From Chitinophaga sp. MM2321 (lineage in GTDB: Bacteria > Bacteroidota > Bacteroidia > Chitinophagales > Chitinophagaceae): a stretch of 64,000 nt of DNA. Positions within the stretch are counted from its first letter, which is position 1; each line of letters opens with the position of its first letter. The notes under the pieces are model-generated. The model was not told the DNA's origin, did no database searches, and was given only the letters and a program-made list of their open reading frames with translations. The stretch covers positions 558,001-622,000 of the forward strand of contig NZ_OZ035533.1 of NCBI RefSeq assembly GCF_964033635.1, read 5' to 3'. A program made the position numbers and the translations under genes. Below are positions 2-59,013 of this stretch, one piece after another.

Positions 2-2428
2 ATCTATGATGCTAACAAACAAGTACCTTATTCCTCCCAACCTGATAACTGGAAAACATTTTTTCAGAACGGAAAATATGTCAACAACAACGTATCACTC
101 AGTGGTGGCAGCGAACAGGTAACTTATCGTTTCTCTTATTCCAACCTGCGCAACGATGGTACCTTACCAAATAACCAGGTAAACCGTAATAGCTTCGACT
201 TCCGGACTACCGGTAAGATCAACAAGGTTTTTTCCGTGGAAGCGGGCGCCAGTTACGCCCTTACAGACGCATTGAACCCATACGGGCAAGGCCGCTACTA
301 CTGGACTTCCGGACAAAACCTCGGCTTCCTGACCTATTATTCAGTGCCCCGGAATACTAACCTGGCCGACTGGAAAGACAGCTACCGTAATGCCGATGGC
401 TCCATGAAAGAATACAGCTATGCACAATATAATAATGTGGTAAGAGAGGCGTTCAACCGCTTTGATAATGTGAATAACAAACGTTCTGAAAAATCCCTGC
501 TGGCCACCGTATTGCTGAAAGCACAGGTAAATGACTGGCTGGACCTGAGTGCCAAAGCCAATCTGAATAACTACCGGATCTTTTATGAAAATAAAGAAAA
601 AGGTAAAGGCGCTTATGGGGCAGGTGGATCATACGGCCTGGGCGGACAATACAGCTCCGGTTATAACTTCCTGTTTATGGCGCATGCTGCCCGTAAACTG
701 ACCAAAGACCTGGACCTGGATGTGCGGGTAGTAAATGAATATTATGGTAATGGCAGACAGGAAGAATACAGCGCCGCTACAAAGGGCGGACTGATTGTTC
801 CCAATGTATTTACATTATCCAATTCACTGGAAGATATCAGGGATAACCGGAAGTACAACTTCAAAACACCCAACGATAAAGTAATGGCAGTGGGTGGTAT
901 CGTAAACCTGAGCTATAAAGATTACCTGAACCTGGAACTCACCGGTCGCCAGGATTGGCTGTCATCCCTCACTTATCCTGATGGTGTACCCGGTGCAAAT
1001 AATTTCGCCGTTTTCTATCCTTCTGTGAATGTATCCTGGGCATTTTCCGATATGTGGAGAACAACCATGCCTGAATGGCTTTCTTTTGGTAAGCTGAGGG
1101 CTTCCCTGGCCTGGGTAGGTACCGGTACAGGCGCTTATGCTACCAGCTTTGGCAGCTATACACAGGGTACCGTACTGGATCAGAATGGCAACTCTGTTGT
1201 GACTGCTACCATGCAGAACGCAGATGTATTACCCAACATGAACCTGAAACCGGAATTACAACGTTCCCTGGAGTTAGGTACTAACATCTCTATTCTGGAT
1301 GACCTGGTAAACTTTGATGTGGCCTGGTATAAAACAAATACTTTCAACCAGATCCTGACCATCCCCGGTGTGCTGGAAACAGGTTATAAGAGAAGAAGGA
1401 TCAATGCCGGTAATATTCAGAACCAGGGACTGGAAGTACTGGTAAATGTAACGCCTATACGTAAAAAAGATCTGCGCCTGGATCTATCGGTAAACTTCTC
1501 CCGGAACAGGGGTAAAATTATTTCCTTCTACCCTGGCATTACCAATTATGAGTTGATGGGTAACTATGATGGCGCCAGCGTATTTGCCTACGAAGGTGGT
1601 GCATTTGGCGTACTCACAGCCAACAGCTACCGGGAACATGATCCCAAAACAGGTTTGCCTATTATCCAGGTAGCCAGCCGCAATACTTCTATGGATCCCG
1701 AAACAAAACATGATTTCCAGGAATATTCATGGGTGGAAAAAACCTTTGATGCCAGTCATCCGAGGGAAGACATAGGGCGTGTGGAACCGGATTTCCTGGG
1801 AGGTTTTAATACCAACCTGCGCTGGAAACAATTTACCCTGTATGCACAGATTGATGGCCGCTTTGGTGGCCTGGCTTATTCAGAAGCCTATAACTATGGT
1901 ATGCAACGCGGTAACCTGCTGAATACATTGCAATACCGTGATCAGGAACATGGCGGCGTAGAACGTATTGATTCCTATACCGGACAAAAAGTATACGATG
2001 GCGCTGTACCTGATGCCATATTTGCAGCAGGCGAAAAAAGCCCTAAAACACAGGAAGATATTGGCGGTATGACTTTCAAAGAGGCTTATGATAAAGGGCT
2101 GGTAGAATCATGGAAAGCGGGTTCCTATTATCTTAACTCCTATGGTTGGGGTACTTACCTGGACAATGGTTCAGTAACAAAAGTTTCCTGGCTGATGCTG
2201 CGTGAAATATCGCTGGGTTATCAGATTCCGAAAAATGTGATCAGCAGGGCGCACCTGAAAAATGCCAGTCTGCGTTTTACTGCCCGGAACATTGCTTACC
2301 TGTATAATGGCCTGACAGGCGGACAGAATCCGGAATCATTGCAGAGTAATAATCCGTTTAACCCGGTTATTACAGGCGCCGTGCCATTCTCCCGCAATTA
2401 TGCCATAACATTAAACATCAGTCTCTAA
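2..2428 (+). CDS. SusC/RagA-type TonB-dependent outer-membrane transporter (5' end outside window)
   Basis: The frame is open from base 2, so the start, signal peptide, carboxypeptidase-like domain and plug lie upstream of the window; about 808 codons of the barrel remain. The visible part is typical SusC barrel: alternating aromatic/polar strands, an SGGSEQVTYRFS stretch early on, an NxKPE-type segment (NLKPELQRSLELG) and a final strand ending AITLNISL. SusC proteins import oligosaccharides or peptides through the outer membrane using TonB energy and a SusD lid. The SusD partner starts 22 nt downstream, so the two are co-transcribed. No enzyme follows in this direction, so the substrate cannot be read from context. 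A GTG at 236 is in frame but is internal. The family call is secure, the ligand is unknown. Confidence 0.95.
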   Translation: MYDANKQVPYSSQPDNWKTFFQNGKYVNNNVSLSGGSEQVTYRFSYSNLRNDGTLPNNQVNRNSFDFRTTGKINKVFSVEAGASYALTDALNPYGQGRYYWTSGQNLGFLTYYSVPRNTNLADWKDSYRNADGSMKEYSYAQYNNVVREAFNRFDNVNNKRSEKSLLATVLLKAQVNDWLDLSAKANLNNYRIFYENKEKGKGAYGAGGSYGLGGQYSSGYNFLFMAHAARKLTKDLDLDVRVVNEYYGNGRQEEYSAATKGGLIVPNVFTLSNSLEDIRDNRKYNFKTPNDKVMAVGGIVNLSYKDYLNLELTGRQDWLSSLTYPDGVPGANNFAVFYPSVNVSWAFSDMWRTTMPEWLSFGKLRASLAWVGTGTGAYATSFGSYTQGTVLDQNGNSVVTATMQNADVLPNMNLKPELQRSLELGTNISILDDLVNFDVAWYKTNTFNQILTIPGVLETGYKRRRINAGNIQNQGLEVLVNVTPIRKKDLRLDLSVNFSRNRGKIISFYPGITNYELMGNYDGASVFAYEGGAFGVLTANSYREHDPKTGLPIIQVASRNTSMDPETKHDFQEYSWVEKTFDASHPREDIGRVEPDFLGGFNTNLRWKQFTLYAQIDGRFGGLAYSEAYNYGMQRGNLLNTLQYRDQEHGGVERIDSYTGQKVYDGAVPDAIFAAGEKSPKTQEDIGGMTFKEAYDKGLVESWKAGSYYLNSYGWGTYLDNGSVTKVSWLMLREISLGYQIPKNVISRAHLKNASLRFTARNIAYLYNGLTGGQNPESLQSNNPFNPVITGAVPFSRNYAITLNISL

Positions 2429-2449
2429 CCAGTTTAAGCCATACGAAAA

Positions 2450-4270
2450 ATGAAGAAGATAAATAAAATAGCGTTAGGGTTGTTGATGGTAGCGGCTTGT
2501 GCGCAATCCTGCAAAAAGGATATGCAGGAGATCAATACAAACCCTGAGCAATTAAATGATACACGTCCTGAATTTTTGTTTACCAGCGCCACATTGAACT
2601 ATACGCTGCCAGGGAGAAGTCAGCTGACGAACAAGTACAGTACTACTTTACGTTACATGCAGTATATCGTGGGAGATAATACAGATAAAAATACAATGGA
2701 AGCTCCCTATTGCGATCCTACAAAAACAACCTTTCCTGATCCGGGTAGCGGAGGGGCCACTTATAACGATTTCTATAACTCCACCGGCAGGGATTATCAA
2801 CGGATCATCGACAAAATAGACGGCCTGGGAAGCGAGTCATTAAAGACCGCTTATAGCGACCTGCGTGCTATCTGTAATATCATGCTTGCATATGATGCCT
2901 GGAAAATAGCGGACGTTTATGGCGCCATGCCTTATTCCCAGGCATTTAAAGTACAGCAATACCCGGTTCCCGGTTACGATTTCAACTGGGATATGTACCA
3001 GGAATTTGACAAGCAGCTGAAAGCTGCAGTAAATGTGTTGAAAGCCAAAACTACGGGTCAGATCAATATCTCCAAACAGGATTTCTTTTATGCGGGTAAT
3101 ACAGATAAGTGGATGAGATTTGCGAATACCCTGCGTATAAAAATTGCACAGCGTTACGAAAAAAGGAATGCTGCCAATTTGCAGGCTGTATTGAATGATG
3201 TTGCCAGCAACTACGGCGGACAGGTGATTTCCAGTAATGAGGAGTCCTTTGGTTACAGCAATGTGAAAGACTGGAACAATAATGTGGATGACATTGATGC
3301 CATACAGAATGTATATGTGGCCGCACTGCCGTTTGTAGAGTTCCTGAAGTCTACCAATGATCCGCGCCTGCCGCTGATGGTACGTCAGAACGACTGGGGT
3401 ACTAACTACAAACCATATGTAGACGTGAAAACCAAAGGCACGCCTGCGAGTCTTGTCGCCCTGAATGACCCTGCAGTGAATACCTCCCGCTACTGGGGTA
3501 AACATGTATTTTCCGCTTCTGCCGGCAGTGCATATGGTTGGCAGGGCCAATCAAAGGCGCATCAGTTTACCATTACAGAAGGAACCGGTACTGCTACCAA
3601 AACGCTCAGCTTTATTTCACTGATCCAGTCAAGATTATTTGTGAAGAATGGTGGATTTAAATCAGACAACACTTCTTTGCATGATGATGAAACGGTGGTG
3701 GATGGCAGCACTATTAAGATGAGAACATCTTTACTGAACTATGCAGAAACCTGTTTTATGTTGGCAGAGATAACGGCGAAAGGTGGTAACAGTCTTGGTA
3801 AATCTGCTGCACAGTGGTATAATGACGGTGTTACGGCTTCTTTTGAAGATTATAAACAAAAAGGTATTTCACAGAATACACCTGGTGCTGCTGCCACTGA
3901 TCTGGGTGATTTCCTGACACGTTATCCTTATAAAGACCTGACCAGCATCTATTCACAGGCTTGGGTGAATTTCCTGACAGAACCTGAAGAAGCATGGGCA
4001 ATGTGGAAACGCACCGGCTATCCGCAGTTCGAGAGTTATAATCCGGCTGGTGGAAACAAGATCGGTGATGGTTCCGGTATCGCTTACCTGGAAGCATTGT
4101 ATACGGGTTCACAGAACCTGTTGATCCCGCGCAGGGCTGTGTTGCAGGTAACATCTACAGAAATTAATGCCAACCTGGATCAGGCGGTACAAACCATGCA
4201 AACAAAAGATCCTGATTTTGGAACAAACAGACTGGATACAAAAGGCCGTATCTGGTGGGATATGAAATAG
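2450..4270 (+). CDS. SusD/RagB-like outer-membrane lipoprotein (SusD_2-type)
   Basis: A 606-aa partner of the upstream SusC. The N-terminus is a lipoprotein signal (charged MKKINK, hydrophobic stretch, then a Cys in AQSCKK at about residue 21). The mature start with an EINTNPEQ-type motif, the helical TPR-like segments, and the C-terminal pattern ending in GRIWWDMK fit the SusD/RagB family branch usually annotated as SusD-like 2. These proteins sit on the SusC barrel at the cell surface and act as a hinged lid that captures the nutrient. The gene follows SusC by 22 nt and is followed by a strong bidirectional terminator, so the pair ends its operon here. Nothing in the sequence indicates the ligand; relatives are often found without adjacent glycosidases and may serve peptides or small glycans. 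Confidence 0.92.
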   Translation: MKKINKIALGLLMVAACAQSCKKDMQEINTNPEQLNDTRPEFLFTSATLNYTLPGRSQLTNKYSTTLRYMQYIVGDNTDKNTMEAPYCDPTKTTFPDPGSGGATYNDFYNSTGRDYQRIIDKIDGLGSESLKTAYSDLRAICNIMLAYDAWKIADVYGAMPYSQAFKVQQYPVPGYDFNWDMYQEFDKQLKAAVNVLKAKTTGQINISKQDFFYAGNTDKWMRFANTLRIKIAQRYEKRNAANLQAVLNDVASNYGGQVISSNEESFGYSNVKDWNNNVDDIDAIQNVYVAALPFVEFLKSTNDPRLPLMVRQNDWGTNYKPYVDVKTKGTPASLVALNDPAVNTSRYWGKHVFSASAGSAYGWQGQSKAHQFTITEGTGTATKTLSFISLIQSRLFVKNGGFKSDNTSLHDDETVVDGSTIKMRTSLLNYAETCFMLAEITAKGGNSLGKSAAQWYNDGVTASFEDYKQKGISQNTPGAAATDLGDFLTRYPYKDLTSIYSQAWVNFLTEPEEAWAMWKRTGYPQFESYNPAGGNKIGDGSGIAYLEALYTGSQNLLIPRRAVLQVTSTEINANLDQAVQTMQTKDPDFGTNRLDTKGRIWWDMK

Positions 4271-4300
4271 CAGTCGCGAGTAGTCATACATGTTGAATTG

Positions 4301-4340
4301 AAAAAGGGGCAAACCGCATCGTTTGCCCCTTTTCTTTTTT
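4301..4340. terminator. Bidirectional intrinsic terminator between convergent genes
   Basis: An inverted repeat pairs AAAAGGGGCAAAC with GTTTGCCCCTTTT around a CGCATC loop and is followed by TCTTTTTT on the plus strand, with an A-run before it that serves as the U-run on the minus strand. It lies between the SusD gene and the convergent GH16 gene and can end both transcripts. Confidence 0.9.
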
Positions 4341-4344
4341 AATG

Positions 4345-5379
4345 CTACCTGTATACTCTTACATAATCCACTTCCATGGTGGCATTTGTAAATGCAGGAT
4401 CTATAGCTCCTCCAAATGCGCCGCCCATGGCAAAGTTCAGGATGATGAAAAAGTCGTGATTAAAAGGTAGGCTACTTGTATTGGTAAACGAGTAGTACAA
4501 TTGATCATCTACATAAAACCTGATCAACGATGGTGACCAGTCCATTGCATATTTATGAAAAGCCGTTGTTTCATTAGACACCTGTACTGTGCCACCAACG
4601 GCATTTCCACCGGAATGACCGGGATAGTGCAAGGTGCCGTAGATCTTGTTGGGTTCACTTCCTTTATGTTCCATAATATCTATTTCTCCGCAGGCAGGCC
4701 AGTCCACAGTGCTGACATTACTGCCCAGCATCCAGATAGCAGGCCAGGTACCAAGACCTTCCGGTAGTTTTGCACTGACTTCTATTTTACCATACTTAAA
4801 GGCAAATTTGTCTTTGGTGAGTATCCTTGCAGAAGTGTAGGCGCTGCCACTAAAGTTTTCTTTGATCGCTTTGATCTTTAATACCCCGTTAGCGATGACT
4901 ACATTCTCCGTCCGGTTGGTATAATACTGCGATTCAGCATTGCCCCAGCCATTGCTACCGTTGCCAATATCATACCCCCATTTGGCGGGATCAGGCGCGC
5001 CGTCTGTATTGAATTCATCCGACCAGTAAAGAGAGGTAGCGATACTTACTTCCACCTGGATAGATTCTTTAGTAGTAAGATTATCTGCACTTTTGGCCGT
5101 AACGGTTACGGTGTAAGTATTCTTACCAGGAACCGTATACTGATAATTAACGATGCCGTTTGCTACCGTTTGATAGGTACCATTTCCAAAATCGTAATCA
5201 TACGTAACGGCATTTTCAGCCACCGCAGTAAAGGCTACTACGCCGCTGCTATCCGTATTTACCACCGCTTTCACTACCAGGTGGGTGGGGGCAACCGGCA
5301 CGACCGGTTTACTATCGTTTTTTCCGCAACCGGCAATACTAATAAGTAGTGCCATCATGATTCCTGTCATATATTTCAT
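4345..5379 (-). CDS. Glycoside hydrolase family 16 endo-beta-glucanase lipoprotein (laminarinase-like) with PKD domain
   Basis: A 344-aa protein with a lipoprotein signal ending in ISIAGC (Cys 18), a PKD-like beta-sandwich at roughly residues 35-113 and a GH16 domain from about 118 to the end. The GH16 signature EIDIME is present at residues 232-237, placing the nucleophile at E232 and the acid/base at E237. The HKGSEPNKIYGTLHYPG loop and a C-terminal MEVDYVRVYR strand resemble bacterial endo-1,3-beta-glucanases (laminarinases), so beta-1,3- or mixed-linkage glucan is the likely substrate. It is the last gene of a minus-strand operon that starts with SusC/SusD and includes two PKD lipoproteins. 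Lipid anchoring suggests a cell-surface enzyme that produces oligosaccharides for the SusCD pair. An in-frame ATG three codons later is an equally possible start. Confidence 0.93.
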   Translation of the reverse strand: MKYMTGIMMALLISIAGCGKNDSKPVVPVAPTHLVVKAVVNTDSSGVVAFTAVAENAVTYDYDFGNGTYQTVANGIVNYQYTVPGKNTYTVTVTAKSADNLTTKESIQVEVSIATSLYWSDEFNTDGAPDPAKWGYDIGNGSNGWGNAESQYYTNRTENVVIANGVLKIKAIKENFSGSAYTSARILTKDKFAFKYGKIEVSAKLPEGLGTWPAIWMLGSNVSTVDWPACGEIDIMEHKGSEPNKIYGTLHYPGHSGGNAVGGTVQVSNETTAFHKYAMDWSPSLIRFYVDDQLYYSFTNTSSLPFNHDFFIILNFAMGGAFGGAIDPAFTNATMEVDYVRVYR

Positions 5380-50281: not shown

Positions 50282-51661
50282 ATGTTCAATAATAGCATTC
50301 TTGATGTCGTAATTGGGCTCGTGCTCATTTACTTGGTGTATAGTTTGCTGGCAACTGCCATACAGGAGTCTGTATCTACCATGCTCCAAACGAGGGCCAG
50401 TACGTTGTACAAAGGTATCCGCAGTATGCTCACCAATACCCCGAAAGACAGGGGCACTGTAATGAATTTTATTAACTACCTGTTTTATAAGTTATGGATA
50501 GAGATAGGTGGATGGTTTAAATCTTTAGTCAGTGAAAATGAGAAATCTTCTTTCTATGATAAGTTTTATGATCATCCTACCATAAAAAATTACGGCGAAA
50601 ACCTGTTCTTTAAAAAGCCTTCTTATCTGACCGCAGAAAATTTTTCCACCATACTTATTGAAACCATTAAAAACCTGGAGAAAGGGAATGAGGGAAGTCT
50701 CGCTACTTTTCCCCTGATCAAATCAATAGTTGATAATAACAACAACAACGTTATTGATCATGAAACCCGTGCTATACTCATTTACCATCTCAACGAGGCG
50801 GCAGGGGACCTGGATGTTTTTAAACACCGTATGGAGAAATGGTACAATGATACCATGGACAGGGTAAGCGGCTGGTACAAACGGACGATGCAGTTTCAAC
50901 TGCTGATAATAGGGCTGGCGCTGGCGATCACACTAAATATTGATTCTGCGGAAATAGCCACCTATTTATCAGATAATAAACCGGCGCGGGAGCAAATGGT
51001 GAAACTGGGACAGGCAACCGCCGGCAATCAAAAATATTCCGCCGGCGATTCATTGATAACAAAAGAAGTATTTGATTCTGTAAAAGTATCTATCTCCAAA
51101 ATAAACACCATCATCGGATTAGGCTGGGGTGATTTCGGCAGTAGCGATTCCATTTTCAGGAAGCACCGTCTCAAAGACAGTCTCCACTGGGGAAAGCCAA
51201 CCAAACAATATATCGCTTATACCTCCGCTGTCTTCCAGGATTCTGCCAATGCTTATTTTAGCAGGTTGTTGAAAGATACGGTCATCGTAAAGAGTGTGGC
51301 TGTTGCTGATACGGCTGCTAACAAACCCCTGGCCGCAACACCTGTGGTTAGAACAGCCTACAGAGATAGCCTGTTAACCAATAAAGAAAGCATCATCGCC
51401 CAAAGGAAATTTGCATTACTATACGACAACGATGATTTTGATTCATCCCTGAAAAGATCTTATGTATGGTATCGTATATGGAGTTGGCGCAAAGTATTTG
51501 GCTTTATGCTCACGGCCTGGGCTATAGGTCTGGGCGCCCCTTTCTGGTTTGATCTCCTGAACAAATTTGTGAAGCTGCGTACCGCAGTAAAACCGGCTAA
51601 CGGCAGTGGAAGCAGTACCCCAAAAAATACATCCGGAAGCAACGATGAAATTGATGGATAA
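50282..51661 (+). CDS. Three-span membrane protein, first gene of the protease operon
   Basis: A 459-aa protein of no assigned function. An N-terminal span (about 5-27; LDVVIGLVLIYLVYSLLATA), a second near 203-222 (FQLLIIGLALAITLNI) and a third near 404-424 (VFGFMLTAWAIGLGAPFWF) bracket two soluble regions. The segment YNDTMDRVSGWYKR just before the second span is a strongly patterned motif that I have seen in uncharacterised bacterial membrane proteins but cannot name. The C-terminal tail is Gly/Ser-rich and probably disordered. Its stop overlaps the subtilisin-like gene start (TAATG), so it is translationally coupled to the rest of the operon and is a candidate membrane platform for the cytoplasmic enzymes. 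Confidence 0.85.
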   Translation: MFNNSILDVVIGLVLIYLVYSLLATAIQESVSTMLQTRASTLYKGIRSMLTNTPKDRGTVMNFINYLFYKLWIEIGGWFKSLVSENEKSSFYDKFYDHPTIKNYGENLFFKKPSYLTAENFSTILIETIKNLEKGNEGSLATFPLIKSIVDNNNNNVIDHETRAILIYHLNEAAGDLDVFKHRMEKWYNDTMDRVSGWYKRTMQFQLLIIGLALAITLNIDSAEIATYLSDNKPAREQMVKLGQATAGNQKYSAGDSLITKEVFDSVKVSISKINTIIGLGWGDFGSSDSIFRKHRLKDSLHWGKPTKQYIAYTSAVFQDSANAYFSRLLKDTVIVKSVAVADTAANKPLAATPVVRTAYRDSLLTNKESIIAQRKFALLYDNDDFDSSLKRSYVWYRIWSWRKVFGFMLTAWAIGLGAPFWFDLLNKFVKLRTAVKPANGSGSSTPKNTSGSNDEIDG

Positions 51662-52740
51662 TGATAGCTGTAAAAATAGTTCGCCCTATATACATCCGTA
51701 AAGGGCCGGGAAGAAGCTTCGATTATTTAGCACCCATCTATCCGAGTGGGAAGGATATCATCATGGATGGTATTGAAAAGGGGGAGAGCTGGAAAGGTAT
51801 TGATGACTGGTATTTCAAAATAAATGATAAGGGTGAAAAGCAGCGGTACTGGGCAGGTGGCGTTAGTGGGAGTGCTGCTGACTTAATTGCAAAGGTTCAG
51901 CTACCAAATGCACAGCAATACATCAATGACCATTATAGCAATGGAAAATTAACCGGCACACTCGATTATAATTATCTTTTAAACCTGGATGAAAATATAA
52001 AATCAACCCAGGGTAAAGGTGTAAAAGTAGTCATCCTGGATTCGCCGGTCAGTAAAAATATAGCATTCAGGAATCCGGTACGCAGACCCATGAATGTGGA
52101 CCATCCTGCTGATGATCATGGAAGTTTTATTGCCGGCATTATAGCGGGTTATTCAAATATTATTGGTATTGCCAGTAATGTAGAGATCATAGAATTACCT
52201 ATTAAAGATCAAAATGGCGCCGGACCGGATTTTCTGGTTTTGCAGGCATTTGAATATTTGAAAAGCACGGAAGAATTAATGATTGTTAATATAAGTTATG
52301 ATTTAGGTATTAAATACGCTGATTTATTTAATGGACTCAGGAATAAAATTATTGTTGCTGCTGCCGGTTCAAATAAAGCATTACAGGATCAAACCATCAT
52401 TTTCCCGGCCAGTCTTCCCGATGTTATTTCCGTAGGGTGTATCTCCAAAGAATATGCAGCCCTGATCAGTAATACCAGCCTGAATAACAGGCTGGACTTC
52501 ATTCTTCCTGACTTTAACTATGCCTCATTTTCACTTGAAAATAATGGATTCGGAAACGATAACGGAGATAGTTACTCCTGCGCAATTGTTTCATCCGCAA
52601 TAGCATTGCTGTTATCTGCGGGCAAGATTACCAGGGATATGAATTTGAACGAAGTCAGACAACAGGTTGCTGGTATATCCATGTCCTGGTTTGATAAGGA
52701 TAAATTTGACATACTCAATATAATAACTCCCAAATCATGA
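51661..52740 (+). CDS. Cytoplasmic subtilisin-like (S8) serine protease with N-terminal SH3-like domain
   Basis: A 359-aa protein without a signal peptide, so probably cytoplasmic. Residues 1-70 look like a bacterial SH3 domain (VKIVRPIYIRKGPGRSFDYL, quoted in part; WYFKINDKG). The S8 fold follows with the triad D127 (VVILDSP), H153 (DDHGSFIAGIIAG) and S304 (GDSYSCA, in place of the usual GTSMA), plus an AAAGSN oxyanion region. The altered motifs are divergent but all three catalytic residues remain. No propeptide is evident, unlike secreted subtilases. It overlaps both neighbours (TAATG before, ATGA after). An internal S8 protease next to a caspase-like gene suggests a regulated intracellular protein-cleavage function. 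Confidence 0.88.
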   Translation: MIAVKIVRPIYIRKGPGRSFDYLAPIYPSGKDIIMDGIEKGESWKGIDDWYFKINDKGEKQRYWAGGVSGSAADLIAKVQLPNAQQYINDHYSNGKLTGTLDYNYLLNLDENIKSTQGKGVKVVILDSPVSKNIAFRNPVRRPMNVDHPADDHGSFIAGIIAGYSNIIGIASNVEIIELPIKDQNGAGPDFLVLQAFEYLKSTEELMIVNISYDLGIKYADLFNGLRNKIIVAAAGSNKALQDQTIIFPASLPDVISVGCISKEYAALISNTSLNNRLDFILPDFNYASFSLENNGFGNDNGDSYSCAIVSSAIALLLSAGKITRDMNLNEVRQQVAGISMSWFDKDKFDILNIITPKS

Positions 52741-54911
52741 AGCATTTACTGCTGTTATTCATAGGTCAGTTTATTTATACCATTGCCTGTGGTCAGATAA
52801 GCTATTACGACGCCATAAAGCTGAAACGGGAGGATAGCATAGGAACACACACCTATGATTTTGATTCTTCGGGAAGAATTTTATTGACACAGAATAATGC
52901 CGTATTCAAAATCCTGAAATATTATGTACCGGATAGCGATACTTCCGACAAGCATTTATTAATGAACGGGTTTGAAGATAACCCTTTCATGCACTGGGCG
53001 GGGACAAAACCTCACGGAAATGTTGTTTCCTCCGGTGCGCCTTCCTTTCTTTCCTCTATTGGTGGCATAGATGTTACCAACATTGCCAATGGAATAGCCA
53101 TGCTGATGATAGACAGGGCAAAGAAGGAATTAACGGTTACTTTCTTTAACCGGTTTAAAAAGTTTGTGGAAGACAGGCAGGAATTCCGCGTACTGTTTCC
53201 GAAAACCACCGGTAACCTGAGCAACCTGCTGGCGTATAAATATCCTGAAATGCTGCCGGCTTTAAGAACCGGTTTCTTTGAAGATTTAAAGAACATCACT
53301 TTTCATCTGGACGATGTATTGGAATTGCCACGTTACAATGAACTGCTGAAAAACTTTCCGGAAATGCGTATGGCCATCAGATCAGTAAGGCTGATACATG
53401 GTATTGAATCCGGTGATATGCATCCCGCCGATGTTTTAACGCAATACGCCGCCTTTGATGAATGGACCGACTCGCTCACAAATTATAAATTTCAAAACTT
53501 CGGAAGCACGATAAAACTGGCAGCTATTTTTTCCAACAGTTTAAGAGATTCTTCCAGCTTATCAAAAGATCCGGATAGAAAAAAAGACAGCGCCAAAGCC
53601 TGGATCAGCTTTAAAAACATGCAGGAGCTTGTAAAGGATAAAGTGGCGTTCAGAATATATTTAGGGCTTATCTATCAATTGGCAAAGAAAGAAAATATAC
53701 ATTGGCAGGATGATAAAATAACCCATTCCTTTACCAGTATTATGGATCAGCAGAAAGATAATGTTTTCCTGTTTGAAAATAAGGTGACCGAATTTATTAC
53801 ACTGGCAGAAAAAGCGGATAAAATAATAGATACATTAAAACAGAAAAATAAAAATAAAATCGAACTGACCAAAGACGATTATTACAGTTATATAAATGCT
53901 TCGCTGGATATTATTGAATACGGATTCTCTATTTCAGATGTATTTGTTACCAGTGATAAACGTGTTATCAGTGACTATGCCAACATCGCTTATAAATCAA
54001 ATGATCTGTACCGGCACATCTACAAAGAAGAATATACGCAGGCGGTTTCCAATGCAATGGACATCCTGGGCGGCGTTGTGGAGTTAATCAACAGTAACAA
54101 GGAAAACCTGGCGGATAGTATTAAAAGAAGATACAGTATTACAACACTCGATACCGCTAAAATAAATGCAGTATTCCGTAGCGGGCGGTCATTATCAAAA
54201 GTTGACACGGTGCTGCTCAACAAGAGCATTGCCTTAATCACTTCTTCCGGCCAACTCCGCAGGCTGAATGACTTCATTGTTAAAACAACCCGGTACGGTT
54301 TATTTATGGCCAATATTGTAGACGCAAAGAAACCGGAAGAGGTACAGGCCGTGCTGGAAAATGTAATCTTACCTGTTGGTAGTTCTTCTATCAAAAAGAA
54401 TACGCAATTTAATATTTCTGTGCAGTCTTATTTAGGTGCGTATATGCGTGTAGGTAGTGAATCTTCTACTTTAAATACCTCCTGGACCAATAAGTTCGGC
54501 ATCTCTGCACCAGTGGGTATTGCTGTCAGTCATGGGTTCTCTAAATACGGATCTGTAAGTTTATTCCTGCCTTTATTTGATATCGGTGCTATCGTGGATT
54601 ACCAGCTGAAAAAAGATTCTACCGTTGGCGTCAATGGCCAGGACAGCAGTATTATTAAGAAGGATTACCAGATAAAACTGGGGCAAATAATTTCTCCTGG
54701 TGTATACCTGGTATATGGATTTTTGGGCAACATACCCTTGTCAATCGGCATTGGTGGTCAGTATGGTCCGGGGTTAGGGAAGATTGACACAAAGGGTACT
54801 GTTATCAATAATCCCAGCTGGCGCTGGAATATGTTTTTAAGCGTGGATATCCCATTCTTCAACCTGTTTAATTCCAATAAAAAATATCAGCTTCAAAAAA
54901 AATTAGATTAA
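52737..54911 (+). CDS. Exported protein with barrel-like C-terminus, unknown family
   Basis: A 724-aa protein with a signal peptide (MKHLLLLFIGQFIYTIACGQ). The first 560 residues are mainly helical and of no known family. The last 160 residues consist of alternating hydrophobic/polar strands of membrane-barrel type (NISVQSYLGAYMRVGS, FGISAPVGIAVSHG, YGSVSLFLPLFDIGAIVDY, IKLGQIISPGVYLVYGF, LSIGIGGQYGPGLG, WRWNMFLSVDIPFF), so an outer-membrane location is likely. It overlaps the protease stop by four bases and precedes the hydrolase by 50 nt. Finding an outer-membrane candidate in an operon of cytoplasmic hydrolases is odd and may indicate envelope attachment, secretion or a pore-like partner. 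Confidence 0.8.
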   Translation: MKHLLLLFIGQFIYTIACGQISYYDAIKLKREDSIGTHTYDFDSSGRILLTQNNAVFKILKYYVPDSDTSDKHLLMNGFEDNPFMHWAGTKPHGNVVSSGAPSFLSSIGGIDVTNIANGIAMLMIDRAKKELTVTFFNRFKKFVEDRQEFRVLFPKTTGNLSNLLAYKYPEMLPALRTGFFEDLKNITFHLDDVLELPRYNELLKNFPEMRMAIRSVRLIHGIESGDMHPADVLTQYAAFDEWTDSLTNYKFQNFGSTIKLAAIFSNSLRDSSSLSKDPDRKKDSAKAWISFKNMQELVKDKVAFRIYLGLIYQLAKKENIHWQDDKITHSFTSIMDQQKDNVFLFENKVTEFITLAEKADKIIDTLKQKNKNKIELTKDDYYSYINASLDIIEYGFSISDVFVTSDKRVISDYANIAYKSNDLYRHIYKEEYTQAVSNAMDILGGVVELINSNKENLADSIKRRYSITTLDTAKINAVFRSGRSLSKVDTVLLNKSIALITSSGQLRRLNDFIVKTTRYGLFMANIVDAKKPEEVQAVLENVILPVGSSSIKKNTQFNISVQSYLGAYMRVGSESSTLNTSWTNKFGISAPVGIAVSHGFSKYGSVSLFLPLFDIGAIVDYQLKKDSTVGVNGQDSSIIKKDYQIKLGQIISPGVYLVYGFLGNIPLSIGIGGQYGPGLGKIDTKGTVINNPSWRWNMFLSVDIPFFNLFNSNKKYQLQKKLD

Positions 54912-54961
54912 CGCATCATTCTTTATAACTGCATATTTAATCAGGCAATAAATCTTTGTAT

Positions 54962-56473
54962 ATGCCCCCGATCATTCAACTCGATAAACTGTATTACATC
55001 AATGTTGGAGAGCATGGTACTTTCCAGCCTTCAGGAGAAGCTGCCTACGATTCCACTTATGAGCATATCGATGACATCTTTAAATACCTGGAAGCGCAGG
55101 ATCAGAAAAAGCTCGTCCTTTATTTTCATGGGGGCCTGGTCGGAGAAGATAGTGGTATGGATACCGCACAGCGGATCACAAAATATGTGAAGGACAATAC
55201 CACTTCGCACCCGGTTTGTTTTGTATGGGAAACCGGGCTGCTGGAAACGGTACGCCAGAATTTTGATGTAATTGGCGACTCTCCTTTTTTCAAAAAGTTG
55301 TTGATTAAAGTAGTAAAAATTGCCGGTAAAATGCTGGGTATTGAGGTGGCTGATTTCATAGGTGCTTCCAAAGGTGTTGGAAATCTGACGGAAGAAGAAA
55401 TAAATGCGGAACTATCCAAAGAGGAACCTTTCAAAGATTACAAGGTTGATCCGGGAAAGAAGTCTGTCAACCTGGTGGCTGTTGAAAATATGCAGGATGA
55501 AGAGGTCATTAAACTGGCCATCGCATCTGAAGTAGAAGCGGAAGTAGAAGAAGAGGTTTACAGTGATGTGGCGTTTCAGAACCTGGCCTTGCAACCCAAG
55601 CCACCGGAAGAAGAAAGGCTCATGAAAGGAGAGCATCCTGCCATTGAAGATGCGACCGGTAAGAAAGGGATTATATTGCCTGCCAGGCTGATAATATCTG
55701 CCACAAAAATTACGATTGCCGTTATAAGAAGACATGTCACAAAAAGAAATCATGGTTTTTATCCTACAATCATTGAAGAAATATTAAGGGAGTTTTATGT
55801 AGCCGATATCGGTACCTGGGCCTGGGGAAGAATGCGTGATAAGGCCAGGGATATGTGGAATGAAGATGATTTTTCAGGAGATCCTTTGGATTGGCATGCC
55901 GGCACCTACCTGTTGAAAAAAATCGTTGAATATAAAAAGGATCATCCCGATCTTATCATTGATCTTGTAGGACATTCAGCTGGTTCTATTGCCATCTGCG
56001 AATTAATAAAAGCTGTTAATGAAAGAAACATTGACCTTGCATTCAGGAATATCCTTTTCATGGCGCCGGCTTGCAGGTGTGAGTTGTTTGCTGAAACAAT
56101 ATTAAAAGGCCCTGCGAGATTTAAAAATTTCAGGTGCTTCACCATGTCTGATGTGTATGAAATAAAAGATCATCTCGTTCCGGTACTCTATCCGCGTTCA
56201 TTATTATATTTAATCTCCGGTATTCTCGAAGAGCGGCAGAACGATGCTTTTATCCTGGGATTACAAAGACATATTACAGGTGGTAAACCTTATGATAAGG
56301 AACCAGTGCTGCAGTCAATCATGAACTTTATAAAAGGAGATGGAAGAATCTCTTATTCCGTTACCGGCGATGACTCCACCGACGGATTCCGTTCTACCGC
56401 GTTGCATCACGGCGATTTTGATAATGATAAGGAAGCAACCCTCGATAGTTTAATGTATCTCATAAAACAATAG
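54962..56473 (+). CDS. Alpha/beta-hydrolase (GHSAG serine hydrolase) with acidic insert
   Basis: A cytoplasmic 503-aa protein. The oxyanion-type loop LYFHGGL is at residues 53-59 and the nucleophile elbow is DLVGHSAGSIAI with S339, an unusually long way downstream because of an inserted segment (about 130-270) that is acidic and low in complexity in part (EVEAEVEEEVYSDV). A candidate acid and histidine follow toward the C-terminus (TALHHGDFDND). Lipase-, esterase- or peptidase-type activity is possible; the substrate is unknown. The frame opens at TTG 54956, but ATG 54962, two codons later, is the more likely start. It is 4 nt upstream of the caspase-like gene. Confidence 0.85.
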   Translation: MPPIIQLDKLYYINVGEHGTFQPSGEAAYDSTYEHIDDIFKYLEAQDQKKLVLYFHGGLVGEDSGMDTAQRITKYVKDNTTSHPVCFVWETGLLETVRQNFDVIGDSPFFKKLLIKVVKIAGKMLGIEVADFIGASKGVGNLTEEEINAELSKEEPFKDYKVDPGKKSVNLVAVENMQDEEVIKLAIASEVEAEVEEEVYSDVAFQNLALQPKPPEEERLMKGEHPAIEDATGKKGIILPARLIISATKITIAVIRRHVTKRNHGFYPTIIEEILREFYVADIGTWAWGRMRDKARDMWNEDDFSGDPLDWHAGTYLLKKIVEYKKDHPDLIIDLVGHSAGSIAICELIKAVNERNIDLAFRNILFMAPACRCELFAETILKGPARFKNFRCFTMSDVYEIKDHLVPVLYPRSLLYLISGILEERQNDAFILGLQRHITGGKPYDKEPVLQSIMNFIKGDGRISYSVTGDDSTDGFRSTALHHGDFDNDKEATLDSLMYLIKQ

Positions 56474-56477
56474 CTAT

Positions 56478-57506
56478 ATGGCAAAAAATGACAAGGATTT
56501 TGCTGTGGTAGTTGGTGTAAGTCATTACGAAGGATTGAAACCTTTGAAAGGCCCTGATACGGATGCAGCGGCTTTCAGAGACTGGCTTTTGTCTGAAGAA
56601 GGCGGAAATATCCCCGAAGAAAATTGCAAGTTTTTAGTATCGAAGGAAACGCCTTTGATACCGTTGCAGGATGATATTGACAGACGTTTTGGAGAGATAT
56701 TAAAAGCACTGCGGGATGCTACCGGTACGGGTAGAAGACTTTATTTTTATTTTTCAGGACATGGCTTGGGCATCACCTGGGATGAAACGGCACTGGCACT
56801 TCCACCCTGGTCGGATATCATGAGAAACTACGCGCTTTCTTCTACCAGTTATCTGAATACCCTGATAGAATGTGGCTTTTTTGAAGAAGTGTTTTTTTTC
56901 CTGGATTGTTGCAGAAACAGGATTCCCGGAACAACCGGCGCCAAACCATTATTTGGAAACGTAAAGCCGGCGCAGGGTACCGCCTATTGTGATAGCCTCG
57001 TTTGTTATTCTACTGAATTTGACAATGCAGCTTATGAAGCAGAGATGGTCACCAGCAAAGACGGTGTGCTGGATAATAACCTCGTCAGGGGCCTGTTTAC
57101 CGTTGCGCTTATAAGTGGCCTGAAAGGCGCTGCCGCCAGGAATGGACAGGTAACCATCATGAGCCTGATGGAGTATCTGCAGAGCTATCTGCCCGAACTG
57201 GCAAAACAACAACAAAAGAAACAGGTTCCCCGCTTCATTAATAATTCCAGGGTACCTGATAAACCGATTACAGGAAAATTGACGTTAACAGATATTGATG
57301 TTACCATTAGCTTTTCCCGGCCTGCACAAATGGTTGTATTGGAAGACCCTAATTTAAATATACTCTGGACCGGAAGTACGGATGCTGGTCCGCAGGCTTT
57401 CAAACTTAAAAGAGGGAACTACTGCATGCGGTATGAGCATAATGACGCTGATATGAAAACGATCAGGATTGATGGAACACAAAATCCTTTTAATTATGAG
57501 TTCTGA
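56478..57506 (+). CDS. Caspase-like (peptidase C14) cysteine protease
   Basis: A 342-aa protein with a p20-type caspase fold at the N-terminus: opening strand DFAVVVGVSHY, then PDTDAAAFRDWLL, the catalytic His in YFYFSGHGLG (H95) and the catalytic Cys in FFFLDCCRN (C145; C144 adjacent). A further segment LVCYSTEFDNAAYE resembles the substrate-pocket strand. From about residue 255 the C-terminus is a beta-sandwich-like module (ITGKLTLTDIDVTISF, MVVLEDPNLNILWTG). No signal peptide. Bacterial caspase-like proteins are often effectors in cell-death or defence operons. It is tightly flanked by the hydrolase (4 nt) and overlaps the last operon gene by 11 nt. Confidence 0.92.
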   Translation: MAKNDKDFAVVVGVSHYEGLKPLKGPDTDAAAFRDWLLSEEGGNIPEENCKFLVSKETPLIPLQDDIDRRFGEILKALRDATGTGRRLYFYFSGHGLGITWDETALALPPWSDIMRNYALSSTSYLNTLIECGFFEEVFFFLDCCRNRIPGTTGAKPLFGNVKPAQGTAYCDSLVCYSTEFDNAAYEAEMVTSKDGVLDNNLVRGLFTVALISGLKGAAARNGQVTIMSLMEYLQSYLPELAKQQQKKQVPRFINNSRVPDKPITGKLTLTDIDVTISFSRPAQMVVLEDPNLNILWTGSTDAGPQAFKLKRGNYCMRYEHNDADMKTIRIDGTQNPFNYEF

Positions 57507-59013
57507 CAATATTTCCAATTATGTCTTCTCTTTTGAAGCGGATGGCCCTCTATCACAATTCGTTAAATTGAAATTATTTAATGGATTTGATGACCTGGTA
57601 GCTGAGGCATATGGGAAGATAACAGTAAATATCCCGAAGGGACTTTACAAACTCAATATTGAGTTTAATGAACAGATTATACAACGCACCTATCGTGTTG
57701 ATAAAGATATAACGGATAGCTGGCTGGCTGCCGGTACCTATTCATCTATACCTGACCAGCAGCTGCTGTCTTCGCATGAATACTATTCTTATACAGCTGA
57801 GATGTGGAGTAAAAAATCTACAGTTGGTATTACGGAGGAGGTACGGAATTCTTCGCTGTTTGTTTTTTTACGCTATCCGAATAAAGAAGTAAAAGATAAA
57901 CAGGTTGAAGCGGCTACTTCGATGGGGGAATATTTTTCATTGCTGGATAGCACGAGAAAAGAAATATACACGTTTGATGATCACTTCATCGAGGAAGACC
58001 ATGAAGTTGGCTGGCTGGCATTTAATGCGCCGTTGAGCAAAGGAGTTTATTTCCTGGTGTACAATGGTCCCCTGAAAAGAGAAATGCCGCTGTATGTTTT
58101 TGAGCAATGGCAAACCCAGGTGTTTATCACTTTCAACCTGACACCGGTCTTTAAGAGTACAAGGATACTGCTTTCACGCCCATGGAATGGATACCAGGTG
58201 CTGGAGCGGGATAACCTCGAACTGGATGCCATGGTTCAGAAAATGCATAATGGTATTTACTATGTTCCGCAGAATTTAATTGACAGGGTAGCAGATGTAA
58301 AATGGGAGAATCCCATGTTAGGCATCATTGTCTGCTATGCTTACCTGCTGAGTGACCGTAAAGATAATGATGTACTTTTTGATATCATTGTTGATAATAT
58401 CCAGCATAGAATTTTGAATGATACCAACGCCCCTGATATACTGGCGCTTAATTTATTGGCTGCTATTCATAAGAAACAGGTCATTCCTGATAGTCCGCTG
58501 GCCTATCCCTGCATGCTCCTGGCGGGTATGAAGGCTTATATGGAGCAATCTTTTAAACAGCCGCACTTAATAGCGCCGGGTAGCATTGTAGAACAATCGC
58601 TATCTAAAATGATGTTTGATTGTGTGTGGACAACATACGAGCCGCTTGCTGTTACAAAGGGAATAGGTGATCCTGTTCCACCTCCGATGCCTGCTATGGA
58701 AGAGCAAATAATAAAAGCTGCGGCGCCTCCTCCTCCTGTGAAAAGTCCGGATATGGCTACCAACTGGATCACCGCCAGTCTCTTTAATAAACTGATAACA
58801 GAAGAACCTATCGTGGGCGGAATTAATAGTATTGCCGAGCAATACCGTATTACGCCGAATATTGTTAAAGAGAATCTTGCGCAGATCAGTGCTTCTCCGG
58901 GCGCCTTAATGGATATGATAACAAAACTGGCTGGTAATGATACCATACAGATCAATAAAACAACAAAGATGGTTACGGAGAATATTAATAAGCTGATGAA
59001 GGGAGGGGAATAA
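57496..59013 (+). CDS. Unknown terminal protein of the caspase operon, beta-rich front and helical tail
   Basis: A 505-aa protein of no recognised family. The first 230 residues are beta-rich (NYVFSFEADG, VNIPKGLYKLNIEF, WLAFNAPLSKGVYFLVYNG), with a short PEGA-like flavour reminiscent of the C-terminal module of the caspase-like neighbour. Residues 230-400 are mostly helical. A proline-rich linker (PVPPPMPAMEE, AAPPPPVKSP) then leads to a C-terminal domain of helices containing GGINSIAEQYRITPNIVKENLAQI, which has a helix-turn-helix or death-fold-like length. No catalytic motif is seen. I choose ATG 57496, which overlaps the caspase stop by 11 nt, over an upstream ATG at 57469. It may be the sensor, adaptor or substrate of the proteases. 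Confidence 0.82.
   Translation: MSSDNISNYVFSFEADGPLSQFVKLKLFNGFDDLVAEAYGKITVNIPKGLYKLNIEFNEQIIQRTYRVDKDITDSWLAAGTYSSIPDQQLLSSHEYYSYTAEMWSKKSTVGITEEVRNSSLFVFLRYPNKEVKDKQVEAATSMGEYFSLLDSTRKEIYTFDDHFIEEDHEVGWLAFNAPLSKGVYFLVYNGPLKREMPLYVFEQWQTQVFITFNLTPVFKSTRILLSRPWNGYQVLERDNLELDAMVQKMHNGIYYVPQNLIDRVADVKWENPMLGIIVCYAYLLSDRKDNDVLFDIIVDNIQHRILNDTNAPDILALNLLAAIHKKQVIPDSPLAYPCMLLAGMKAYMEQSFKQPHLIAPGSIVEQSLSKMMFDCVWTTYEPLAVTKGIGDPVPPPMPAMEEQIIKAAAPPPPVKSPDMATNWITASLFNKLITEEPIVGGINSIAEQYRITPNIVKENLAQISASPGALMDMITKLAGNDTIQINKTTKMVTENINKLMKGGE

Follow-up and report, generated by a model that had tools for sequence, protein, structure and literature searches.

Described caspase systems and the Chitinophaga locus

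Canu (KaeCanABC) is, according to the accessible part of its description, a caspase-nuclease antiphage system of three genes with a MALT1-like caspase and a modulator gene, CanB (PMC12799240). In the same source, the Canu proenzyme has two gating insertions, defence was lost when either predicted cut site was mutated, and the CanA-CanB complex activates CanC (PMC12799240). A comparable three-gene cassette, designated O4-O5-O6, was recognized in a window of 64,000 nucleotides, the whole stretch of DNA analyzed here, from Chitinophaga sp. MM2321 (GCF_964033635.1, NZ_OZ035533.1, positions 558,001-622,000 of the forward strand). It is probable, though well short of certain, that this cassette is a caspase-activated serine hydrolase system for cell death or immunity, in which O4, probably a lipase or esterase, would be a proenzyme cut by the caspase O5.

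As far as the Canu source shows, the likeness lies in the three genes, the caspase, a modulator candidate, and a proenzyme with two predicted cut sites, and the difference lies in the effector, which is a metallo-beta-lactamase (MBL)-fold nuclease in Canu and an alpha/beta serine hydrolase in the cassette. The cassette is not a member of Canu, which requires the MBL-fold nuclease; the Pfam matches of the six window proteins considered here included no MBL family. Canu membership would also call for a caspase with a C-terminal immunoglobulin-like fold; the C-terminus of O5 looks beta-rich, judged from sequence alone.

The idea that a caspase is paired with an alpha/beta-hydrolase is already in print. 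In the accessible text on VMAP ternary conflict systems, the caspase domain is always neighboured by an alpha/beta-hydrolase gene and the two likely operate together (PMC7159879). The cassette shares this pairing, but that text mentions neither an O6-like partner nor any cut sites or proenzyme for the VMAP pair (PMC7159879). VMAP membership was rejected, as the six window proteins gave no VMAP match. Four of the ten cassette genomes have no VMAP-C match, and none of O4, O5, and O6 was found at the 14 places read of the 16 VMAP-C places in cassette genomes. A multi-domain caspase homologue of Chitinophaga pinensis, in the available part of its description, carries amidase and GDSL-lipase domains (PMC3501461). 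It likewise brings a caspase homologue together with a lipase-type hydrolase, within a single system of the same bacterial family; it differs in being a single fused protein with a GDSL lipase, whereas the O4-type hydrolase has its own gene.

The only NCBIfam caspase model matched by O5 is that of the EACC1-associated caspase (NF047832), at 48.2 bits against a cut-off of 140, and assignment to the two-gene EACC1 system was rejected. The sequence relatives of O5 with solved structures are metacaspases and MALT1, while O5 is bacterial and paired with a hydrolase and O6. Metacaspases and the MALT1 paracaspase prefer basic P1 residues. In the open-licence literature, outside which lie most subscription papers and all bioRxiv preprints, no description of a stand-alone O4-O5-O6 cassette, of O6, or of the paired sites was found. 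The original prediction, made from the letters of this DNA, had matched the genes to no named system, and it is agreed that this protease-hydrolase system has no family name.

Structure and distribution of the O4-O5-O6 cassette

Six open reading frames (ORFs), O1 to O6, span positions 50282..59013 of the window, all on the + strand. The O1/O2 and O2/O3 junctions read TAATG and ATGA, a gap of 44 nucleotides separates O3 from the TTG start of O4 (50 to its ATG), O4 and O5 are 4 nucleotides apart, and O5 and O6 overlap by 11. These ORFs, their spacing and junctions, and the named catalytic residues are as originally given. Only O2 and O5 pass Pfam cut-offs, O1, O3, O4, and O6 staying below all of them, and none of the six proteins passes an NCBIfam cut-off. 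The Pfam scan of the window proteins gave DUF900 (PF05990) 11.8 bits against a cut-off of 20.5, which rejects that membership. PADLOC returned a general caspase model (2e-17), a subtilase model (2e-10), and a weak Cas6b match for O1.

O4 (54956..56473, +) has 505 amino acids from TTG or 503 from ATG. O5 (56478..57506, +; 342 amino acids) belongs to Peptidase C14, with PF00656 at 53.2 bits (cut-off 21.4) and a His/Cys dyad, as had been predicted. Its catalytic His95 (56760..56762, +) and the triplet Asp143-Cys144-Cys145 with the catalytic Cys145 (56904..56912, +) are each present in 51/51 loci. The seemingly beta-rich C-terminal stretch of O5 is missing in the locus L032, and a sub-alignment around the active site found no solved relative. 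O6 (57496..59013, +; alternative TTG at 57469) is predicted to be a regulator or sensor, with an N-terminal CnaB/transthyretin-like beta-sandwich followed by beta and helical parts; the fold test covered chiefly residues 4-80. It matches no family in Pfam, PADLOC, or NCBIfam, again as first noted, and has 28 homologues besides itself.

Scanning named genomes with an O4 alignment yielded 56 loci, in which O4, O5, and O6 were then placed by profiles. The three genes stand in the same order in 51 of them, from six phyla: Bacteroidota, Pseudomonadota, Actinomycetota (Streptomyces), Chloroflexota, Acidobacteriota, and Armatimonadota. O5 and O6 form a single ORF in L029. Both are missing from the other five loci (L025, L042, L045, L051, and L063). 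Pairwise distances of O4, O5, and O6 are correlated across 50 loci (Pearson 0.92-0.93, Spearman 0.69-0.82). The locus L048, which has broken frames, counts among the 51 order-conserved loci and, as a fragment, in the catalytic-residue counts and one comparison of site 2 (48/51) below; it was left out of the distance correlations and of the conserved-column, site, switching, and tree counts, the last of which also leave out L047. The 51 rows in the site and conserved-column counts are the window plus 50 loci. In L048 itself (1431-4743; Chitinophaga pinensis YS-16), the three genes match only piecewise and in different frames, which fits decay and sequencing error alike.

The distribution of the cassette is patchy. 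With its own genome included, O4 was matched in 4/60 genus, 3/149 order, and 9/395 class genomes, six of the nine class-level matches being nearly full length. These counts are lower bounds, because the first pass of the genome search was lossy and missed the window's own caspase in the C14 search of its own genome. Plasmid records matching O4 number 14, of which 5 cover at least 80% of the query. No O4 was found among 50,697 phage records, and a pattern search of viruses in IMG/VR matched 9 stretches, none of them a relative. Flank searches in congeners for an empty site matched many paralogues. In the tree of 56 O4 proteins, Bacteroidota lie on one side of a branch with support 94/91, and Pseudomonadota are split (4 changes).

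In a plasmid cassette (L134, 8552-12901; Mesorhizobium onobrychidis pOM4), O4 and O5 are followed by O6 as the N-terminal part of a 1449-amino acid protein annotated as phospholipase D-like. A trypsin-like gene stands after that protein, and an IS21 element lies upstream. The Chitinophaga sp. MM2321 genome has three further C14 matches (G000:C1:5844461-5848388 and 3387936-3388622), two of them in frames of 1061 amino acids about 3.2 kb apart.

The hydrolase O4 and its two predicted cleavage sites

O4 is an alpha/beta-hydrolase by its fold and its Ser/acid/His residues. Residue numbers are counted from the TTG at 54956 unless stated. The nucleophile Ser341 (55976..55978, +), which is the serine of GHSAG originally predicted as S339 from the ATG, is Ser in 55/56 aligned loci, and His485 (56408..56410, +), likely catalytic, is conserved in 56/57 rows. 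An insertion of about 165 residues lies between the HGG motif (58-60) and the nucleophile.

Two positions in the insertion have a conserved [KR][GA] pair, Lys or Arg followed by Gly or Ala, and are predicted to be cleaved. Site 1, Lys139-Gly140 (55370..55375, +), is [KR][GA] in 46/51 rows and in 115/120 rows of a larger set of homologues; for site 2, Lys237-Gly238 (55664..55669, +), the counts are 49/51 and 117/120. Both sites carry the motif in 45/51 rows and 113/120 homologues, and the next best [KR][GA] column pair in O4 reaches 18/51 and 86/120. The stretch between them, residues 140-237 (55373..55666, +), is acidic, with a median net charge of -13 in the 51 rows and -14 in the 120, and is predicted to be cut out or opened. 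Just before site 2, residues 226-233 of the model (503-amino acid numbering) have a predicted local distance difference test score (pLDDT) <50.

Five longer proteins with O4-type domains (L132, L133, L135, L184, and L185) are without most of the insertion, which indicates that the fold does not need it. The domain is fused to a papain-like C1 peptidase in L132, L133, and L135. These fusions to other proteases, like that to CHAT in L131, count in favour of the mechanism predicted below. A further protein (L186, 539 amino acids), a candidate short form, still has 118 residues where the insertion lies and hence was not counted.

Coupled switching and loss of the sites

The residues at the two sites switch between Lys and Arg together. 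Sites 1 and 2 are KK in 16, RR in 32, RK in 2, and other in 1 of the 51 rows (Fisher 3e-11), and KK in 59, RR in 50, mixed in 8, and other in 3 of the 120 homologues (2e-23). At 60% non-redundancy (62 rows in total), 59 rows have Lys or Arg at each of the two sites, and in 52 of these the sites agree (2e-9). Other pairs of well-conserved basic columns reach p 0.003 at best. On the tree, sites 1 and 2 change 9 and 8 times, 6 of these on shared branches (chance 2e-6), and in the 120-protein set 16 and 16 times with 11 shared (6e-12). Such joint switching is as expected if one protease reads both sites.

Among O5 columns, residue 93 (56754..56756, +), next to the catalytic GHG and two positions ahead of its His, is the one most strongly associated with KK versus RR by Fisher test (1.1e-7). 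Whether it is Ser or Ala goes with the choice of Lys or Arg at the O4 sites: Ala93 is found in 0/16 KK rows and 25/32 RR rows. This residue also shares the most change branches with site 1 (4). Three O5 columns and two O6 columns are basic in 35 rows or more, and none of them tracks the KK/RR pattern. A protease-to-hydrolase step inside O4-O5-O6 is supported by apparent coevolution.

In hydrolases without a caspase neighbour, site 2 is lost. The motif [KR][GA] is found at site 2 in 0/5 hydrolases without O5 and O6 versus 48/51 with them (Fisher 1.5e-5), although this joint motif was picked after seeing the data and the caspase-less set is small (n=5). Site 1 keeps the motif in 1/5. The five proteins retain 82-94 of 98 conserved columns, and four of them retain Ser341, Asp405, Glu425, and His485. 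Column 237 by itself is lost in 3/5, and the same holds for column 238 and for five others including 139, but 237/238 is the only adjacent conserved pair, of 36, broken in all five. The caspase-less hydrolases are scattered in the O4 tree, with L051 by L047, L025 among caspase-bearing Bacteroidota, and L063 adjoining L052 on a long branch of unsure position.

Predicted mechanism

In the simplest account, both sites of O4 would be cleaved by O5 under the control of O6, by analogy with CanA-CanB acting on CanC. The cell would produce O4 in a latent form, as an alpha/beta serine hydrolase that is probably a lipase or esterase. O6, either together with O5 or acting on it, would sense a trigger and turn the caspase on. 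O5 would then cleave O4 on the C-terminal side of a Lys or Arg, at K139-G140 and K237-G238, and these cuts would remove or open the acidic stretch of 98 residues. The freed O4 may attack lipids or another essential ester and so stop the cell; that it is a lipase acting in this way is suggested by its fold and by analogy.

Several observations weigh against this mechanism. No Foldseek match for O4 was obtained at E<=0.001. Site 1 lies within a modelled short strand, outside the disordered loop. The insertion is retained in an 872-amino acid protein that carries an O4-family hydrolase and a CHAT protease domain together (L131, 7919-10537), and L045 has neither the nucleophile serine nor a caspase. 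O4 column 233 likewise has 6 change branches in common with site 1, but out of 30 changes, and O5 columns 289 (0.88) and 176 (0.84) agree with the KK/RR label better than residue 93 (0.82), with fewer shared changes. Among six cassettes outside the set, the Lys/Arg residues agree in L134, L137, L181, and L183 and differ in L130 and L136, a count that alone proves little; the site letters of L130 and L134 were read by eye, and Ala93 occurs among the six only with RR (L181 and L183). Finally, the coupling of the sites could be structural if the two touch, and the defence context is anecdotal, as described below.

Genomic neighbourhood

Neighbours were compared for 26 of the 51 cassette loci (contigs >100 kb) with one arbitrary 13-kb place per same genome. 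Neighbours were the two nearest ORFs of at least 120 amino acids on each side, called by a naive procedure that performs badly on high-GC Streptomyces, and were searched with PADLOC at 1e-10. The PADLOC families matched were 58 among 104 neighbours and 33 among 102 controls, nearly all of the 25 listed per set having a single member. Of the 25 neighbour families listed, 22 are GajB models with one member each, presumably reflecting one UvrD protein of L023. This control gives no evidence for or against defence enrichment.

The single-locus contexts come from proteins hand-picked by size and position and are no sample. OLD-TOPRIM and UvrD proteins (Gabija-like) lie upstream of the cassette in L023, and the cassette stands between HsdR and HsdM in L022. 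Proteins with NACHT and FGE-sulfatase domains are found on both flanks in L060 (7135-9954 and 14556-17477), an nSTAND1 neighbour in L032, and a caspase-iHD-CE protein on the opposite strand in L028. Ordinary neighbours include a P-type ATPase (L015), an amidohydrolase and M19 (L008), DNA polymerase III alpha (L027), an S46 peptidase (L038), and a glycosyltransferase (L052). The neighbours of Streptomyces cassettes, transport proteins and regulators, look ordinary.

Immunity or regulated death is the likely role, yet it is unproven, because the inspected neighbours were hand-picked and the matched control was uninformative. The case for a defence role is weaker than that for cleavage of O4 by O5.

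Alternative explanations

An unlikely alternative is that O4, O5, and O6 work as one complex in a task that does not kill the cell, for instance the turnover of envelope lipids or the processing of proteins, and that the [KR]G sites are structural turns at either end of an inserted domain and co-vary by contact. In its favour, the ends of an inserted domain are often near each other in space, site 1 lies in a modelled strand, and the neighbour control gave no clear enrichment in defence genes. Structural turns, however, leave unexplained both the loss of site 2 in all five caspase-less hydrolases and the link to the residue beside the catalytic His of the caspase, and the patchy distribution is unlike that of a housekeeping system.

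The original prediction read all six genes as one multi-hydrolase cascade tied to both membranes, to be judged by whether they are kept together, and this now appears improbable. O1 (50282..51661, +), the first gene of an O1-O2-O3 module, encodes a membrane protein of 459 amino acids with two hydrophobic stretches, near 9-27 and 202-225, in a plain hydropathy scan. O2 (51661..52740, +; 359 amino acids) belongs to Peptidase S8, with PF00082 at 62.7 bits (cut-off 21.8) and the residues D127/H153/S304 as first proposed. O3 (52737..54911, +; 724 amino acids) has a signal-like start in the hydropathy scan and no assigned family in Pfam.

The tight gene spacing in the window favours a single system, as do C14-S8 fusion proteins that adjoin the cassette in L019 and L020 and have a homologue in L021, and the presence after O3 of a protein with an alpha/beta-hydrolase domain in L119 and of a caspase in L124. 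Against this, O2 and O3 are unmatched in all 56 O4 loci and O1 is matched only weakly, in L008 (tblastn, 1e-3). O1, O2, and O3 are contiguous without O4-O6 in L119 and L120, as are O1, an S8 gene, and O3 in L121, and O4-O5-O6 are present in L130 with no O1-O3 in the 19 kb read. Among 60 genus genomes, the own genome included, O1 is matched in 35 and O3 in 15.

The window operon is best read from these homologues as two adjoining, separable modules, because O1-O3 occur in congeners without O4-O6, and O4-O6 occur without O1-O3, in a congener too; the six genes as one system were rejected on the same ground. The predicted cascade survives as the protease-to-hydrolase step suggested by coevolution inside O4-O5-O6, not across all six genes, and of the neighbourhood of C14, S8, and alpha/beta-hydrolase proposed for a search, C14 with the alpha/beta-hydrolase proved conserved. 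Upstream of the cassette here, O1-O2-O3 make up a membrane-subtilase module of their own. In L119 (8614-13408), O3 is followed after 15 nucleotides by a 562-amino acid protein with the alpha/beta-hydrolase domain, and in L124 (7603-15340) by the C14 caspase and a WD40 protein. From these two loci, the module may recruit other effectors.

There is little to recommend the remaining alternative, in which the caspase itself is the killer and acts on many proteins, with O4 or O6 as its activator and cleavage of O4 as feedback: caspases can act as executioners, and O6 shares one ORF with the caspase in L029, but the paired Lys/Arg pattern lies in O4 and no conserved basic column of O5 or O6 tracks it.

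Implications

The chances are about even that the cassette represents a widespread, undescribed bacterial system for cell death or immunity, whose caspase releases a lipase-like proenzyme by cutting an acidic segment out at two sites, the specificity of the protease for Lys or Arg coevolving with both substrate sites. If this is true, a caspase-activated lipase would stand beside the known caspase-activated nuclease and gasdermin. As a candidate the cassette is concrete: it offers a hydrolase as effector, cut sites predicted to the residue, and sequence variation in nature from which protease specificity can apparently be read, and it would make the coevolution of a bacterial caspase and its substrate directly testable with three genes.

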